Of a stretch of DNA of 40,079 nucleotides, positions 3,265 through 36,421 are shown piece by piece. A program made the position numbers and the translations under genes. Numbering within the stretch: the stretch's first letter is position 1; each line of letters starts with the position of its first letter. The DNA is from a virus, in the IMG/VR virus record IMGVR_UViG_3300032157_000029, positions 1 to 40,079 of that record; one strand, given 5' to 3'. The notes under the pieces are model-generated. The model saw nothing but the letters and a program-made list of their open reading frames with translations. It searched no databases and was not told where the DNA came from.

Positions 3265-5357
3265 GCGCGGCGCGGCCCTTCGGCCAATGCGGTTTGAGAC
3301 GACGCGGCACCAACGCCGATCGCAGTGCCCTTCAAAATTGCCTGAAGCGCGAGGCTCCACTGTGGCGACATGGCCGCGTTAGTGACGAGCTTGTTCAGCG
3401 CCGCTTTGTCGGATGACGTGAGCAGTGTTGCGACTTCGTTCATCACCTTCTGGTCGATGTTGCGACCAAGGAACCGCGCACCGGCCACGCCAGCGGTGAG
3501 CATCAGCGGTCGCCAGTCTCCCGTCATCCAGCCAAACCCGCCTGTGGTCGCACTGGCCCCGCCCAGGGCAGCGATTTGCGCCACAGTGGTCGAGTTGCCT
3601 TGCAGCGCCCGCTTGGACTGCTCCATGATCGCTTCGACGGTCGTGTAGGCTTTGAGCTGCTGCACCTTGAATGGACTGCCGAGTGCGAGTTCCGCCAGTT
3701 CGCGGTTGGCCGGGCTCTCAAACACCTGCTTGATGATCGCGTAGGAGTCGGCACCCGATTTGAGCTTGTCCGTGATCGAGGATGCCCACCCGATACCGAA
3801 CGCCTTCTTTTCAGCATCGCTGAATTTGGCATAAGCGGCCTTGGCTTCGGGGAGGTTGCGAGGCTGCAAAGCAAACTGTCGTCCGGCGTCGAGCGCGTCC
3901 TCGGCCCCGAAGAATCCGGCGGCCCCGCGCCGTGCGTTTCCGAACGCCGGCACTGCCGCGTCGAGGTCGTTGTTGAGAGCTGCGCGCAGTTGATTGAGAC
4001 GCGCTGCATCCTCGCCGCCACGGGGGAAACTTTCCGCTTTGGAGCGGAGATTGCGCTGTACCTGATCCCAGAATTGCAGCGATGGGGTAACGCCGGGCTT
4101 CATGCCTGCGATAGTGCCGTCCGGGTTGAACGTGAACGGATACTGCACCGGCTTGCCGCCGTTGAGCGCGGCGAAGGTTTTGCCTGTCGTTTCGGCCTCA
4201 CGCATGGCGGCGGTAAACTCAGGGGAAGCCGTCAACTGCTGAAGCCGTGGCGTCCATATCGACTGCGCTTCGGGAGCGGCATAGGCCGCGTCATAGGCTA
4301 CCTTGTTTGTGACCCTGCCCGTGTCCTGGATGCCCTGCCGCAGAGCGATGTCGTCTGCCGATCCGCCGACAAGCTGTGTCACGAAATTGGCAGCGCGCAT
4401 GCTGGGGATGCCGCGATCCATCGAAGCATCAAGCAGCCCCTTCGCGTCGGGGCTGGCGTTCGACGCCGTGCGAGCAAGGCTACGTGTCGCCGCGCCGCCG
4501 CGATCAAGGTTGGTGATCGGCATGCCGTTGCCAGTAGCCCATGCGTCGAGGCCGTCATCGAGAGCGCCGCCACGGGCAACGTCACTGCCGTAGGCTTTGC
4601 CTACCATGCGTTCGGCAGTGGCCCTTGGGTTTGCCGCACTCACCGCCTTGCCGGGCACACCGCCCAGCATCCAATTCGCGCCAATGCCGAGGCCCTTCGC
4701 AGCGACGCCAAGCGCGGGAACGGCCGCAGAGATAGCCGCTGGAATAGTCGAGTTCTGCGCCGCTTCCATCGGTGAAGCGCCGCGCGCCATCTGGTCCGCA
4801 AAGTTGATGCCGTACATCGACGTTCCGCTTAGAGCGGTGCGAGCGCCGAAGTCACCAAGCTTGGTCATGAACCCCGCGCCCGGCCCCAGATCGGCTCCCG
4901 TGAAGCCAAGCATGCGCGAGGTTGGCCCGAACATACCTGCGCCGGCAAATGGTAGGACGTTGCCCGTCACTGCGCCAGCATCACGCGACAACGGATCAAG
5001 TTCCTGCGCGCGGCTGGCCTCAAGCTTCATCTGCTCTGGCGTCGAGCCGTACATTTTGGCTTTGAGGTTGGTGGCGTTGTCGTACAGCCACGGCCCGGCA
5101 ATCGGGACGCCATTGATAGCAGCCGACGAAAACGCAAGGCCGCGCTCCCCCAGTGTTGGGGCGGGAAGACTGAGACGGGGGTCCGCGTCTGCCTGTGCCT
5201 GCGCCATTTGACCCGGCGCATTCTGCATGAACTGATCGGGGAACATGTCCTTGCCAGCATCGGGAAAGCGCGTGAGGATCAGCGCCTTGATCTGTTCCGG
5301 CGGCATGTCGTCGGGAAACGACACCACCGCACCATCGGGCATTTTGATGTCGGGCAT
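3258..5357 (-). CDS. Large ejection-type internal virion protein
   Basis: A 699-residue protein. It opens with a short domain seen at the N-terminus of many phage structural proteins (MPDIKMPDGAVVSFPDDMPP). The rest is Ala- and Gly-rich with several helical hydrophobic stretches (about 180-235 and 590-680). It has no catalytic motif. In short-tailed phages, two or three large proteins encoded next to the tail genes are ejected and build the channel through the envelope; size, composition and neighbours support that role here. Its start overlaps the stop of the upstream 359-aa gene by one base (TAATG). Confidence 0.65.
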   Translation of the reverse strand: MPDIKMPDGAVVSFPDDMPPEQIKALILTRFPDAGKDMFPDQFMQNAPGQMAQAQADADPRLSLPAPTLGERGLAFSSAAINGVPIAGPWLYDNATNLKAKMYGSTPEQMKLEASRAQELDPLSRDAGAVTGNVLPFAGAGMFGPTSRMLGFTGADLGPGAGFMTKLGDFGARTALSGTSMYGINFADQMARGASPMEAAQNSTIPAAISAAVPALGVAAKGLGIGANWMLGGVPGKAVSAANPRATAERMVGKAYGSDVARGGALDDGLDAWATGNGMPITNLDRGGAATRSLARTASNASPDAKGLLDASMDRGIPSMRAANFVTQLVGGSADDIALRQGIQDTGRVTNKVAYDAAYAAPEAQSIWTPRLQQLTASPEFTAAMREAETTGKTFAALNGGKPVQYPFTFNPDGTIAGMKPGVTPSLQFWDQVQRNLRSKAESFPRGGEDAARLNQLRAALNNDLDAAVPAFGNARRGAAGFFGAEDALDAGRQFALQPRNLPEAKAAYAKFSDAEKKAFGIGWASSITDKLKSGADSYAIIKQVFESPANRELAELALGSPFKVQQLKAYTTVEAIMEQSKRALQGNSTTVAQIAALGGASATTGGFGWMTGDWRPLMLTAGVAGARFLGRNIDQKVMNEVATLLTSSDKAALNKLVTNAAMSPQWSLALQAILKGTAIGVGAASSQTALAEGPRRAQ

Positions 5358-21791: not shown

Positions 21792-22138
21792 ACGATGCCT
21801 ACCTTCGACAGTGCGGCTTTTACCCTTTTGAAGGTGTCGGCCCAGATTTGACCGTCATTGAGTTCGGCTTCTTCGGCCACATGCGCCAACACCTCGACCA
21901 ATTCCATGTGGCAGTTCACGGCGGTAACGATCAGCTCTGCATTTGCTCTCATTTCCGACTGGGTGACGAACGGCCGCCCCGGCTCGCGGTCAGCCTCGGC
22001 ATCCCAGTTCATGGTTGCCACGTGGCGCCAGTTGTAAACCTCGTCGGCATCGTCCACGATGAACAGTCCGATGTCGGGGCCCATTGGGTCTTCAATGACC
22101 CAAGGCAGGGCGGTAGGCAGGGCAATGGGCTTGCTCAT
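21788..22138 (-). CDS. Early-left protein, unknown function
   Basis: A 116-residue acidic protein. The N-terminal half is beta-rich with several Trp; the C-terminal half is a helix (MRANAELIVTAVNCHMELVEVLAHVAEEAEL) like the Ala-Asn-Ala-x-x-Ile-Val helix of several small phage proteins of the early region. Coupled to both neighbours (ATGA). Role unknown. Confidence 0.6.
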   Translation of the reverse strand: MSKPIALPTALPWVIEDPMGPDIGLFIVDDADEVYNWRHVATMNWDAEADREPGRPFVTQSEMRANAELIVTAVNCHMELVEVLAHVAEEAELNDGQIWADTFKRVKAALSKVGIV

Positions 22139-22407
22139 GCCGCACCTACCTTGGCGCTCTTAACGACCGCCAACGCGGCGATGATCGCTGCAAGCCCCTC
22201 GCCTTTGGCGACAGGCTGGAGCCCGCGACCGTCCAGCGAATCAACGTGCCCATCGATCTGCGCCGCGCTCGTGCCACGAACGCGGCGCTTGGCCTGCGCC
22301 TCAGTGGCGTACCGACCGACGATCTTGCTTCCGACCAGAACCGCGAAAGGACGGGCTGCATCGTTGATGGCTACCGGGGTCTTCCGAGTGTCGAGAATCT
22401 TGATCAT
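22135..22407 (-). CDS. Early-left small protein following the RHH-controlled promoter
   Basis: A 90-residue protein from ATG 22407 with a GGAGCGG site 7 bases upstream. The longer frame up to 22983 is only the complement of the rightward gene. The middle has VLVGSKIVGRYATEAQAKRRV, an insert-strand-helix shape that may bind nucleic acid. It is the first gene downstream of the leftward promoter candidate at 22444-22472. Confidence 0.6.
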   Translation of the reverse strand: MIKILDTRKTPVAINDAARPFAVLVGSKIVGRYATEAQAKRRVRGTSAAQIDGHVDSLDGRGLQPVAKGEGLAAIIAALAVVKSAKVGAA

Positions 22408-22420
22408 TTGGCCGCTCCAC

Positions 22421-22449
22421 TTGCGTTTCAATCTGATATCAACTAAATA
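22421..22449 (+). promoter_or_regulatory. Candidate rightward promoter for the GIY-YIG/RHH gene
   Basis: TTGCGT (22421-22426), 17 bases, TAAATA (22444-22449). Both boxes are imperfect. The -10 box is the complement of the -10 box of the leftward candidate, so the two promoters would face each other and share these bases. A TGATATCA palindrome lies in the spacer. Confidence 0.35.
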
Positions 22450-22499
22450 GGAGATATCGTTTTGGCGGTCAATAGGGCGAGCAAGAAAAATGATATCAT
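22434..22499. promoter_or_regulatory. Cluster of three GATATC palindromes, probable operator
   Basis: GATATC occurs at 22435-22440 (within TGATATCA), 22453-22458 and 22492-22497 (within the 10-bp palindrome ATGATATCAT that includes the start codon of the rightward gene). The first two are 18 bp apart. Ribbon-helix-helix proteins commonly bind short palindromes in series near their own promoter, and the gene starting here encodes such a domain, so autoregulation is likely. Confidence 0.55.
22444..22472 (-). promoter_or_regulatory. Leftward sigma70-type promoter
   Basis: On the leftward strand TTGACC (22467-22472), a 17-base spacer and TATTTA (22444-22449). One GATATC sits in the spacer and another just past the -10 box, near the expected transcript start, so a bound repressor would block it. 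It would drive the 90-aa gene and the genes down to about 21,035. Confidence 0.5.
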
Positions 22500-22978
22500 C
22501 TTCCACAAGTCTGTATGTGATGGGCGCCGAGGGCGGGCCGATGAAAATCGGGCTCGCAAAGATGCCAGAGCGGCGTTTGCGCTCAGTCCAGACCGGACAC
22601 GCACGGCCCGTGCGGTTGCTCGCTTCTTGGCCGGTCCCGCTGGACAAGGCTCGCGACATTGAGCTGCGAGCCCGTTGGCTGCTGCGTGAAAAGCGGGCGC
22701 ACGGGGAATGGTTCACAGTTGGCGCACGAGAGGCTACACAGGCCGCGAAGGCCGCCGTTGAGTCCAATGGCGAGGGAGAGAAGGCCAGGCCCGCCGTGGG
22801 ACGCATCAAGATCAACGACGAGCAAACCCCTGCCCGCTTTCCAGAAGGAACGCTGGCGCGAATTGACGCGGCCCTAGACGGCAAGGAAAAGCGTTCGGAC
22901 TTCATCCGCGAAGCGGTGGAGCGGGAGCTGGCTAGGCGAGCGAAGGTCAAACCCCGTCCTCCCACCGGCCTTGATTGA
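22490..22978 (+). CDS. GIY-YIG-like (MUG113/T5orf172-type) domain fused to a ribbon-helix-helix domain
   Basis: A 162-residue rightward gene in the middle of the leftward operon. Residues about 7-75 match the MUG113/T5orf172 branch of the GIY-YIG fold: LYVMGAEGGPMKIGLAKMPE, then RRLRSVQTGHARPVRLL and the closing R..GEWFTV. Residues about 112-152 (ARFPEGTLARIDAALDG, then RSDFIREAVERELARR) form a ribbon-helix-helix DNA-binding domain. The usual second Tyr of GIY-YIG nucleases is not obvious (Lys-Ile-Gly replaces it), so the nuclease may be inactive. Palindromes at its start suggest self-control. Its 3' end overlaps the convergent 112-aa gene by 32 bp. Confidence 0.75.
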   Translation: MISSSTSLYVMGAEGGPMKIGLAKMPERRLRSVQTGHARPVRLLASWPVPLDKARDIELRARWLLREKRAHGEWFTVGAREATQAAKAAVESNGEGEKARPAVGRIKINDEQTPARFPEGTLARIDAALDGKEKRSDFIREAVERELARRAKVKPRPPTGLD

Positions 22979-23285
22979 GCCACGTGGCTAGGTGCGGGAT
23001 GAACTTCCCATCGTCCTTCATGCGGAACGTGCGCTTATCGATCTGCGAGCTGACGTATGCCTTCACGCCCGCAAGGATCGCCTCGGGTGTCGCCTCTAGT
23101 TCGAGGTCCACATATTGCCCGCTGTCCTTGTCGAGTGTGCGGGTGCGGAACCCACCCTTGAGGATCGCTTCGTACTTGGCGCGGGCGAGCGGCTTCTTGG
23201 CCTTGTTGGGCCAGAGCTTCCAGACTTCCTCGAACCGGCTCGGCTCCGGCGTAGCGTCGGGGAATAGGCGTTGCACGTTATTCAT
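22947..23285 (-). CDS. DnaT-like/replisome loader-like protein
   Basis: A 112-residue protein. The N-terminal FEEVWKLWPNKAKKPLARAKYEAIL and the C-terminal KFIPHLATWLNQGRWED are the two hallmarks of the C-terminal domain of phage replication proteins of the O/DnaT type (a Trp-Pro-x-Lys segment and a Pro-His-x-x-Thr-Trp-Leu-Asn element). In full-size proteins an N-terminal winged helix precedes this; here it is missing, but a separate winged-helix protein is encoded directly upstream. It may recruit the host helicase. It is the only replication-type gene seen. Confidence 0.7.
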   Translation of the reverse strand: MNNVQRLFPDATPEPSRFEEVWKLWPNKAKKPLARAKYEAILKGGFRTRTLDKDSGQYVDLELEATPEAILAGVKAYVSSQIDKRTFRMKDDGKFIPHLATWLNQGRWEDGV

Positions 23286-23638
23286 GCCGCCACCTGCTGC
23301 GCAAAGAGCGCTTTTGACGCCGGAGGCATCCTGTAGCCACGCCTAAATATCGTCTCGATCTTGACGCCGGACTTCGCCAGCTTCTTGCGTAGATGGTAGA
23401 CGTACACGGACAGGAGGTTGCCGCTCCGGGTATCCCCCTCATGGATAATGGCTTCCATCGCGTCTATCGTGACGACCTCGCGCGCTAGAAACAGTTGAAG
23501 AATGGCGCTCTCGTGCCTCGTCAGGTAGGGCACCCAATCTGGAAGCGGCGATGCCTGGGCGGCGATGGAACGCAACTGGCGCACAGTCTCTTCCAGCTCT
23601 TCGACACGCGCTCGCAGGCGCTCGTTCTCACTTTCCAC
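23282..23638 (-). CDS. OmpR-type winged-helix protein with N-terminal coiled coil
   Basis: A 118-residue protein. Residues 1-25 form a short coiled coil rich in Glu, Arg and Leu. Residues about 35-108 match the DNA-binding half of OmpR-class response regulators: ESAILQLFLAREVVTIDAM, then LLSVYVYHLRKKLAKSGVKI and ETIFRRGYRM. No receiver domain is present, so no phosphorylation is expected and the coil may provide dimerisation. It is coupled to the DnaT-like gene (ATGA), so it may serve as a transcription factor or as the DNA-binding part of a split replication initiator. Confidence 0.75.
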   Translation of the reverse strand: MESENERLRARVEELEETVRQLRSIAAQASPLPDWVPYLTRHESAILQLFLAREVVTIDAMEAIIHEGDTRSGNLLSVYVYHLRKKLAKSGVKIETIFRRGYRMPPASKALFAQQVAA

Positions 23639-27698: not shown

Positions 27699-28081
27699 GC
27701 TGCCCTCGGCTCAAGCGGAAGGCGAACAAACCACTCGATAGGAACAAGGGCGTTCAGATGATTGTTGCCGTCGCCGATCCATGCCTTGCGGTCTTGCTGG
27801 ACAGCCATGCGGGCGAGACGCCTGACGTACTCAACGGGGACAACGAGCCAGCATTCTGGGAAAAACTCGATGGCATAGACGCCGGCGGTTGTGACCATGA
27901 CGCCGGACTCGACGGTGTCGCCGTTTCGCAGCGTCTGCGCGATTTCGATTGCAACATTGCCGGTGCGCGCCGCCTTCTTGTCACGCTTATGCTCCACTTT
28001 CGAACGGAGCATGACGTGGACGAAGGCATCCTCACGTGCCTTGCCCTCACGAAGGTCCATGTCAAATGTTTCGTAGGGCAC
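27695..28081 (-). CDS. Putative PD-(D/E)xK nuclease-like protein
   Basis: A 128-residue protein starting with GTG 28081, overlapping the upstream TAG by one base. It contains SKVEHKRDKKAARTGNVAIE (about 27-46): Glu-x-Lys-Arg-Asp followed by a Thr-Gly-Asn and a hydrophobic-Glu strand, then Glu-Ser-Gly and Thr-Thr-Ala-Gly. This series recalls a group of small phage and plasmid endonucleases with a VEVKRD...TGN...SG pattern. Catalysis is inferred. The substitution of His in Glu-His-Lys is a slight departure from that pattern. Confidence 0.55.
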   Translation of the reverse strand: MPYETFDMDLREGKAREDAFVHVMLRSKVEHKRDKKAARTGNVAIEIAQTLRNGDTVESGVMVTTAGVYAIEFFPECWLVVPVEYVRRLARMAVQQDRKAWIGDGNNHLNALVPIEWFVRLPLEPRAA

Positions 28082-29313
28082 TAGGCGACCTCGCTTTCGG
28101 TGTCAGCCTGGTTGCCCCAGACGGCCCAGCCCTCACGGGGGCGGCGAGCGAACAATTCGAGATATGGACCGGGAACAAGGCGCTCGATGCGAGCTGCTAC
28201 CTCGTCGGGCTTGCGACTGTGTTCCATGCGCGGCGACTGCACGACTTGATGCACGTCCGCATTGAGCCGGACGGGGTTGCCCTTCGTTGCGAGGATGCAG
28301 ATCTCCGCATTTGCGCGGGTCCAGTAGCCCATGCCGGTTGCAGGGCGCGACTCGTCTTGCGTCGTCTTTACCCAGACGAAAGCGACGGTCTTAAACTCAA
28401 ACCCCCACGCCTTGATGACTTCGAAAGCGTCGGGAAGCTGGGGCATGACGGCCCACATGAGCAGGGCACAATCATCGGCCGCCAGCCGCTCAATGGGCAA
28501 CGCCTTAATGTCGTCAAGCTCCATTGTCGGATAGTGGTTCTCAGCAGCGCGGTCAGTCCCTGCCCCGCTCCAGACTTTGTAAGCCCAAGGCGGATCGGCG
28601 TAGATGACGCCGTACTTGCGATCACTCTCCGGCACTTCTGCATTGCGGGCGGAAATGGCCTTGGCCTGCTCAACCTTTTCGGTGCGCTTCTTTTCAACGC
28701 GCTCGGCACGGATGGCCTTCGCCGCCAGCAGTATTTCCTTTTCGCCCTTTGCGACGACCTCGCGCTGTTCCTCTCGGGGAAGCGTGGCAACATCGGCGGC
28801 AGCCGACACGCTCACCTGCCCCGCCTCAACAGCGGCAACAAGCTCTGGCGCACCTTCGTCCTTGACGGTCTTCGCTGTTGCGACAGTGCGCGGCGACACG
28901 TTGAGCATCGTCGCGGCGGCTTCACGGGAAACATGCAAATTTGCATCTTTGCCGTGTTCGCCCTGCCGCAGGGTTTCGAGCTTCGCCGCCACCATGCCGC
29001 GCTGCGACTCGTTCAAATGCCGCCGCGAAAGGTTGAGCGAAACGACGAAGCCGAGCGGATCGTCGCCAAGATATTCGACAAAGGGATATTCAACGCCAGC
29101 AGCGCGAGCAGCCATGTAGCGGTTGCGGCCGTCAAGCAATTCGCCCTGATAGAAAACGATGGGCTCTCGAACGCCGTTCTGGCGCACGTCCGCTTCAAAG
29201 GCGGCAAGCGCGTCACCGTCCAGCATGGGGAACAGCTTGGCGTATTCGTGCCAGCGAACGCCTGCCTCGTTGAACTTCTGGTATTGGACTTCGCTGAGTT
29301 GGCCCCTGCTCAT
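28081..29313 (-). CDS. ParB-like domain fused to MT-A70 adenine methyltransferase
   Basis: A 410-residue protein. Residues about 20-130 match the ParB N-terminal fold (VREPIVFYQGELLDGRNRYM, then LSRRHLNESQRGMVAAKL). Residues about 130-190 continue with a helix-turn-helix as in ParB (EAAATMLNVSPRTVATAKTV). After a Lys- and Glu-rich link, residues about 230-400 form an MT-A70 methyltransferase with catalytic DPPW near 240 and a C-terminal Glu-Leu-Phe-Ala-Arg element. MT-A70 enzymes transfer methyl groups to adenine N6. The ParB part could target DNA. It is the second gene of the early-left operon and is coupled to the Cro-like gene. Confidence 0.85.
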   Translation of the reverse strand: MSRGQLSEVQYQKFNEAGVRWHEYAKLFPMLDGDALAAFEADVRQNGVREPIVFYQGELLDGRNRYMAARAAGVEYPFVEYLGDDPLGFVVSLNLSRRHLNESQRGMVAAKLETLRQGEHGKDANLHVSREAAATMLNVSPRTVATAKTVKDEGAPELVAAVEAGQVSVSAAADVATLPREEQREVVAKGEKEILLAAKAIRAERVEKKRTEKVEQAKAISARNAEVPESDRKYGVIYADPPWAYKVWSGAGTDRAAENHYPTMELDDIKALPIERLAADDCALLMWAVMPQLPDAFEVIKAWGFEFKTVAFVWVKTTQDESRPATGMGYWTRANAEICILATKGNPVRLNADVHQVVQSPRMEHSRKPDEVAARIERLVPGPYLELFARRPREGWAVWGNQADTESEVA

Positions 29314-36019: not shown

Positions 36020-36421
36020 ATGATGGCCGAAGACGACCCCCTGAACCCTATCAAGCTGTCGCGGGGCGTGGTCGCCTCAGTGCGAGCAATGTCCCCGGTG
36101 AACTACGAAGCATGGCAGGACGGCTACCAGCCTCCCGGCGACCACGTGTTGATCCACAACCTTATGTATGAGGGCGCGCACGTGGTCAGTAGCCTTGCCC
36201 TCGACGGATTTGGCTTCTGGGTCGTGGTGCGGGGAACGTTGGCGGGGAAGAAGGGCGAGGTCTTCCGCAAGATGCTCGAAAGCCAGATCGAGGATATCGT
36301 CGAACACATCACGGTCGAACCGGAAGGTCCGCCTAGCTCAGATGGGATAGAGCGCCCCGATCCTAACGGGGAGGTCTCAGGTTCGAGTCCTGAGGCGGAC
36401 ACCACGGCTGCGGTTGTGTAA
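36020..36421 (+). CDS. Protein whose 3' end is formed by the tRNA gene
   Basis: A 133-residue protein from ATG 36020, with AAGGAG at 36010-36015; ATG 36023 is equally well placed. Residues about 1-100 look like a small soluble protein with a hydrophobic beta middle (ALDGFGFWVVVRGTLAG) and an amphipathic helix (FRKMLESQIEDIVEHITVE). Residues about 103-128 are the translation of the tRNA-Arg gene, so the original C-terminus may have been replaced when the tRNA segment was acquired. Function unknown. Confidence 0.55.
   Translation: MMAEDDPLNPIKLSRGVVASVRAMSPVNYEAWQDGYQPPGDHVLIHNLMYEGAHVVSSLALDGFGFWVVVRGTLAGKKGEVFRKMLESQIEDIVEHITVEPEGPPSSDGIERPDPNGEVSGSSPEADTTAAVV
36327..36404 (+). tRNA. tRNA-Arg(CCT), with encoded CCA; probable attP
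   Basis: All elements are present: acceptor stem GTCCGCC/GGCGGAC perfect, D arm GCTC/GAGC, anticodon arm CCCCG/CGGGG with loop ATCCTAA (anticodon CCT), variable loop, T arm TCAGG/CCTGA with TTCGAGT loop, discriminator A and CCA. It is 75 nt plus CCA. Integrases often use the 3' part of tRNA genes as attachment site, and phages commonly carry the 3' part to restore the host gene; here the whole gene is present. It may be functional or be the attP identity segment. It lies within the reading frame 36020-36421. Confidence 0.85.

Follow-up and report, generated by a model that had tools for sequence, protein, structure and literature searches.

The locus studied here raises the question of whether a phage protein that joins a GIY-YIG domain to a ribbon-helix-helix (RHH) domain, and whose gene starts within an array of GATATC palindromes, acts as a repressor, as a nuclease or as both. 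The window, i.e. the whole stretch of DNA analysed, belongs to a temperate tailed phage and is a virus record of 40,079 bp with terminase, portal, scaffold, endolysin, Erf, NinB and integrase genes. The fusion gene (22490–22978, + strand, 162 aa) is the sole rightward gene between two leftward neighbours. To its left, a gene for a 90-aa protein (22135–22407, − strand) with a Shine-Dalgarno-like GGAGCGG is the first under the candidate leftward promoter and is followed by further leftward genes; to its right, a convergent gene for a replication-initiation-protein-like product (22947–23285, − strand) overlaps the 3′ end of the fusion gene. A scan for an intrinsic terminator between the fusion gene and its neighbours returned a single candidate, at chance level.

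Translation, Pfam and NCBIfam bear out the original prediction that this lone rightward gene unites MUG113/T5orf172 and RHH domains. Residues 19–87 match MUG113 (E = 2e-8) and T5orf172 (E = 3e-5), both above the Pfam cut-offs and both belonging to the GIY-YIG superfamily; the complete domain covers approximately residues 9–87 (22514–22750, +), including the motif residues Y9, K19, R29 and E58. Residues 111–150 match the YlcI/YnfO RHH family NF041551 with 31.9 bits against a curated cut-off of 30. The RHH domain (22799–22945, +) comprises the predicted DNA-contacting strand Q112-T113-P114-A115-R116-F117 and helices at residues 121–128 and 135–152, both of which are present in the AlphaFold2 monomer model at pLDDT of about 87–91 (mean for the model, 87.6). 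A solved relative of the protein was not found by sequence. The prediction had covered 22421–22978; the fusion gene is indeed present there, with the refinement that it begins at 22490 and that 22421–22489 constitutes the control region. Two other leftward genes of the window were noted: one adjoining the switch (23282–23638) encodes a small Trans_reg_C winged-helix protein without a receiver domain, possibly another regulator, and one at 28081–29313 encodes a DNA methyltransferase fused to a ParB-like domain.

The control region contains two facing promoter candidates, TTGCGT-17-TAAATA on the + strand (22421–22449; −35 at 22421–22426, −10 at 22444–22449) and TTGACC-17-TATTTA on the − strand (22444–22472; −35 at 22472–22467, −10 at 22449–22444). 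Both use the same six −10 bases, and operators 1 and 2 are centred 9 bp to either side of them, as originally described. Operator 1 (TGATATCA, 22435–22440) lies in the spacer of the rightward promoter and over the leftward start that we infer from the usual distance; operator 2 (GATATC, 22453–22458) occupies the mirror position in the leftward spacer, over the rightward start expected in the same way. Operator 3 (TGATATCA, 22492–22497) overlaps the ATG of the fusion gene (22490–22492). The hexamers are modest consensus matches, and both candidates fall short of the strict consensus threshold applied in the promoter scan; we credit them because their elements are kept in 20 other arrays.

The three GATATC copies fall within 63 bp, and the window has a single further copy, at 36293. 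Three starts within 57 bp were seen in 0 of 2000 first-order Markov windows, on which ground chance clustering was rejected. GATATC is a common palindrome and its total count in the window equals expectation, as would suit a cluster that arose by chance or that serves restriction or methylation and has nothing to do with the protein; considering the clustering, the conservation of the array in about 27 loci and its covariation with the RHH strand described below, such an origin is extremely improbable. A wider GATATC regulon in this phage found no support, other near-matches in the window being at chance level.

A scan of viral sequences identified 23 relatives, mostly stand-alone RHH proteins of about 50–80 aa with up to 86% identity in the RHH domain; the stand-alone RHHs of phages with GATATC arrays are 74–86% identical to that of the fusion. 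Nearly all relatives have 3–4 GATATC boxes before or across the start, spaced by 18/25/35 bp or, in one subgroup, 31/34 bp. In the window, the spacing of 39 to operator 3 is unlike that of the relatives, and the canonical third site, expected near 22478, is lost. An alignment of 21 control regions indicated that the boxes, the TTG of the rightward −35 element, the shared −10 region and the leftward TTGAC are kept. Carriers of a stand-alone RHH gene with an array include many alphaproteobacterial phages and prophages and one plasmid, and the same layout is present in Methylobacterium soli, Caulobacter and Chelativorans genomes, in the isolated Caulobacter phage DMCA and in the Methylobacterium plasmid pAMS5c. 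A recognisable array is absent from two stand-alone loci (L012 and L092) and two fusion loci (L005 and L008). L012 is the main exception to the rule, as its stand-alone RHH has a QTPARF strand and there is no GATATC array upstream of position 2275. At L005 and L008 the fusion gene comes after another short RHH-like gene, located about 200–300 bp upstream, with 83.6% DNA identity between the two loci.

RHH proteins read DNA mainly through their beta strand (PMC10853773), and the operator type follows this strand. Strands of the form xxPARF (with A for P in one case) are found with GATATC boxes, TMARF or TLARF with GGTATC, DMxARF with TCATATGA, KLT- or KVT-ARF with GGTGKC, and FTAVRL with CGATAACG. 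Strand position 3 accounts for 1.45 of 1.52 bits of operator class across 41 loci, a value reached in 0 of 5000 shuffles, although the shuffles overstate its significance because the covariation is partly inherited through shared ancestry. Within its strand classes the rule held in all six loci found later (L083, L084 and L097–L100). A more distant RHH protein at L091, with strand EQLRLPL and upstream ACATGA-type repeats, may represent a sixth operator class. Together, the five classes tied to strand residues, and the possible sixth, would amount to a natural recognition code for RHH repressors.

Because the boxes change with the RHH strand and arrays accompany stand-alone RHHs, we read the array as the operator of the RHH protein and the module as a portable autorepressed switch. 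Some 40 related loci, whose array and RHH gene occur together and co-vary, lend strong support to the predicted autoregulator with its own GATATC operators over two promoters. On these comparative grounds, the GATATC array is very probably bound by the RHH domain of the fusion, repression of both promoters by that binding is highly likely, and the RHH repressor with its array is an old portable switch as judged from its relatives.

The genes on the other side of the switch vary. Each of the 28 checked loci of the GATATC or GGTATC type has a leftward open reading frame that starts 15–62 bp to the left of the first box, in most cases with a purine-rich stretch resembling a ribosome-binding site. 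Homology of these leftward genes across loci was considered and rejected, as they are unrelated except for two pairs. RHH gene, array and two promoters therefore make up a portable, autorepressed cassette whose cargo differs from locus to locus and in the window begins with the 90-aa protein. For alphaproteobacterial phages, such a promoter cassette marks a place to seek new accessory genes.

The GIY-YIG domain is a repeated addition to this module. Five distinct fusions were identified, namely those of the window, L002, L004, L005 and L008; L003 encodes the same protein as L002. The fusion label requires 5 changes on the RHH tree, which was built from 53 columns and has many unresolved forks. 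At least 3 of these changes are forced by supported branches, and none of the bootstrap trees unites the fusions as one group. The window protein neighbours the stand-alone RHH of L007 (88/89 support). L007 also encodes a 68% identical counterpart of the protein to the right of the fusion gene, and its DNA resembles the window further left as well. L004 is 97.7% identical to the stand-alone locus L018 over 44 bp on the box-1 side and 92% identical to L020 over 171 bp on the RHH side; what lies between these near-identical flanks is GIY-YIG coding DNA, indicating a clean insertion. An uninvaded allele at the same locus is thus available both for L004 (L018/L020) and for the window (L007). L008 looks like a recombinant from its sequence, its RHH half being 97% identical in DNA to the stand-alone L019 and its upstream part resembling L005, with a differing strand. 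Between fusion lineages, the GIY-YIG halves are 28–38% and the RHH halves 51–81% identical. Considering the tree neighbours without the domain, the clean insertion and the lower identity of the GIY-YIG than of the RHH halves, we conclude that the domain was added at least 3 times independently, at the same joint.

Outside these loci the combination is rare, as none of about 700 alphaproteobacterial genomes sampled contained a fusion, RHH and GIY-YIG domains occurring there only apart. Searches with each fusion protein gave no new fusions with an RHH domain, and no paper on such a GIY-YIG/RHH fusion, or on operators of this family, turned up in the open-access literature searched. Prior descriptions exist separately for RHH autorepressors, for GIY-YIG homing nucleases and for a chimeric T5orf172 nuclease. 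A separate neighbouring GIY-YIG gene as a partner for stand-alone RHHs was considered and seen only in L006, where a GIY-YIG protein (3447–4121, − strand) is encoded near the RHH gene; it lies beside a tRNA-like stretch and is probably incidental for that reason.

Whether the added domain cuts DNA can be approached through its residues. G16, P17, K19, I20, G21, R29, E58, E73 and F75 do not vary among the five fusions, and Y9, K19, R29 and E58 align with Y127, K138, R148 and E180 of Odn, so that the catalytic Arg and Glu are kept in all five. Odn, from phage ICP1, is an active T5orf172 nuclease whose cleavage needs a repeat array and which is catalytically inactive as E180A (PMC8263062). In the fusion, the second catalytic tyrosine (the YIG position) is a lysine, and the helix His/Tyr is absent, as it is in Odn (PMC8263062). 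Since Odn is active with like residues, the lysine is no sign of inactivity. The AlphaFold2 model has 105 viral structure matches at E < 1e-3, the named ones mostly T5orf172, MUG113 or GIY-YIG proteins; against solved structures in the PDB the match is only weak, the best being Slx1 (prob 0.77, E 0.75). Comparison of the GIY-YIG domains of the window and L002 yielded a dN of 0.33 with saturated dS, and the domain is therefore under purifying selection. On these data the balance tips slightly towards a catalytic domain. The original suggestion of a nuclease aimed at operator-like sites is plausible in light of the motif residues shared with an active T5orf172 nuclease and of the repeated capture.

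The serious rival is a GIY-YIG domain that serves as a non-cutting accessory for DNA or partner binding, leaving a protein that is only a repressor, like the regulators combining T5orf172 with KilA-N/BRO-N. The window genome keeps three intact GATATC boxes that an unrestrained array-directed nuclease would cut, which counts against cutting; the YIG tyrosine is replaced, T5orf172 domains are known in viral BRO-type proteins, and stand-alone RHHs manage without an extra domain. However, the active-site Y, R and E persist in lineages that share only about 30% identity, and Odn, which is an active nuclease, carries the same residue set, making a non-cutting domain the less probable reading. The alternative offered by the original prediction, a switch in which repression would be lifted when the domain senses DNA damage or a ligand, draws on the domain fusion itself and on nothing else; the protein has no LexA/RecA-type or known ligand-binding feature and the relatives give no hint of sensing, so we regard a sensor as very unlikely.

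The insertion data also bear on a homing endonuclease allele, in which GIY-YIG DNA entered the repressor locus and spreads by cutting alleles without it near the array and being copied into them, regulation being only what the host gene already did. The clean insertion between the near-identical flanks of L004 and L018/L020, the repeated use of one joint and the precedent of I-TevI speak for such an allele, and a canonical box is missing in 3/3 GATATC fusions compared with 2/25 stand-alone loci (P = 0.003, post hoc, n = 3). However, there are just three such arrays, the insertion alone could have deleted the box, and the GIY-YIG halves are too divergent for one recently spreading element. We consider this origin of the domain doubtful.

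Our preferred reading, which we regard as likely, is an autorepressor of a two-promoter switch with an added, probably active GIY-YIG nuclease aimed at the GATATC arrays of rival or unfused alleles. RHH dimers would bind the GATATC boxes through their beta strands and, once bound, cover the start and spacer both of the rightward promoter of the protein's own gene and of the facing leftward promoter, so that the repressor would limit itself and the accessory genes from 22407 leftward. Because the −10 element is shared, only one promoter could fire at a time. The GIY-YIG domain came in later, and repeatedly, between array and RHH; it is catalytically able in the somewhat more probable case, and would be directed to GATATC arrays by the RHH. 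If catalytic, it must spare its own array; one such route is known from I-TevI, in whose operator a suitably spaced cleavage sequence is missing (PMC2988022). The fusion may mainly repress at its own altered array, while it could cleave the arrays of related phages that carry the stand-alone gene, leading to exclusion, as Odn does to PLE, or to spread of the fused allele. Tentatively, and with less than even probability, phages may repeatedly convert a resident autorepressor into a nuclease against the operator arrays of competitors, repressor specificity targeting the attack, changes in array spacing protecting the carrier, and stand-alone and fused alleles being victim and attacker.

Among known systems, the YlcI/YnfO family, whose curated cut-off the RHH domain of the fusion passes, includes ylcI of the E. 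coli prophage DLP12, which likewise stands alone, runs opposite to the late genes around it and comes just ahead of nohD, a packaging gene. Unlike the window fusion, E. coli YlcI is a stand-alone protein; GATATC was absent upstream of its gene, which was rejected as a carrier of the same operators, and a functional study of the protein did not turn up in the literature searched. About 150 bp upstream of this gene (L060, 7252–7446) there is a near-palindrome, TGATAATAATTATCA. Arc/Mnt-type phage repressors are small RHH repressors with operators between or over phage promoters; they differ from the window in their operators and genome position and are not known to have a nuclease domain.

I-TevI of phage T4 is a GIY-YIG nuclease that, like the window protein, also has a DNA-binding domain; it acts as a repressor at the promoter of its own gene, and its cleavage of the operator there is about 100-fold poorer (PMC2988022). 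I-TevI differs in being intron-encoded, in its canonical GIY-YIG motif, in its long linker with a zinc finger and in its binding domain, and the dual nuclease/repressor function is proven for I-TevI only, not for the fusion. Odn (ICP1 Gp88) joins a T5orf172-type GIY-YIG domain, aimed at a repeat array, to a DNA-binding domain common to other mobile elements. That domain is an N-terminal replication-origin binder (DUF6945 region) and not an RHH, and the target array lies in PLE and not over Odn's own promoter. The fusion has the corresponding trait, in that its binding domain is common to the stand-alone RHHs of phages with GATATC arrays. That one repressor module captured a GIY-YIG domain on at least three occasions suggests that regulators can repeatedly turn into sequence-directed nucleases, along the lines proposed for Odn.
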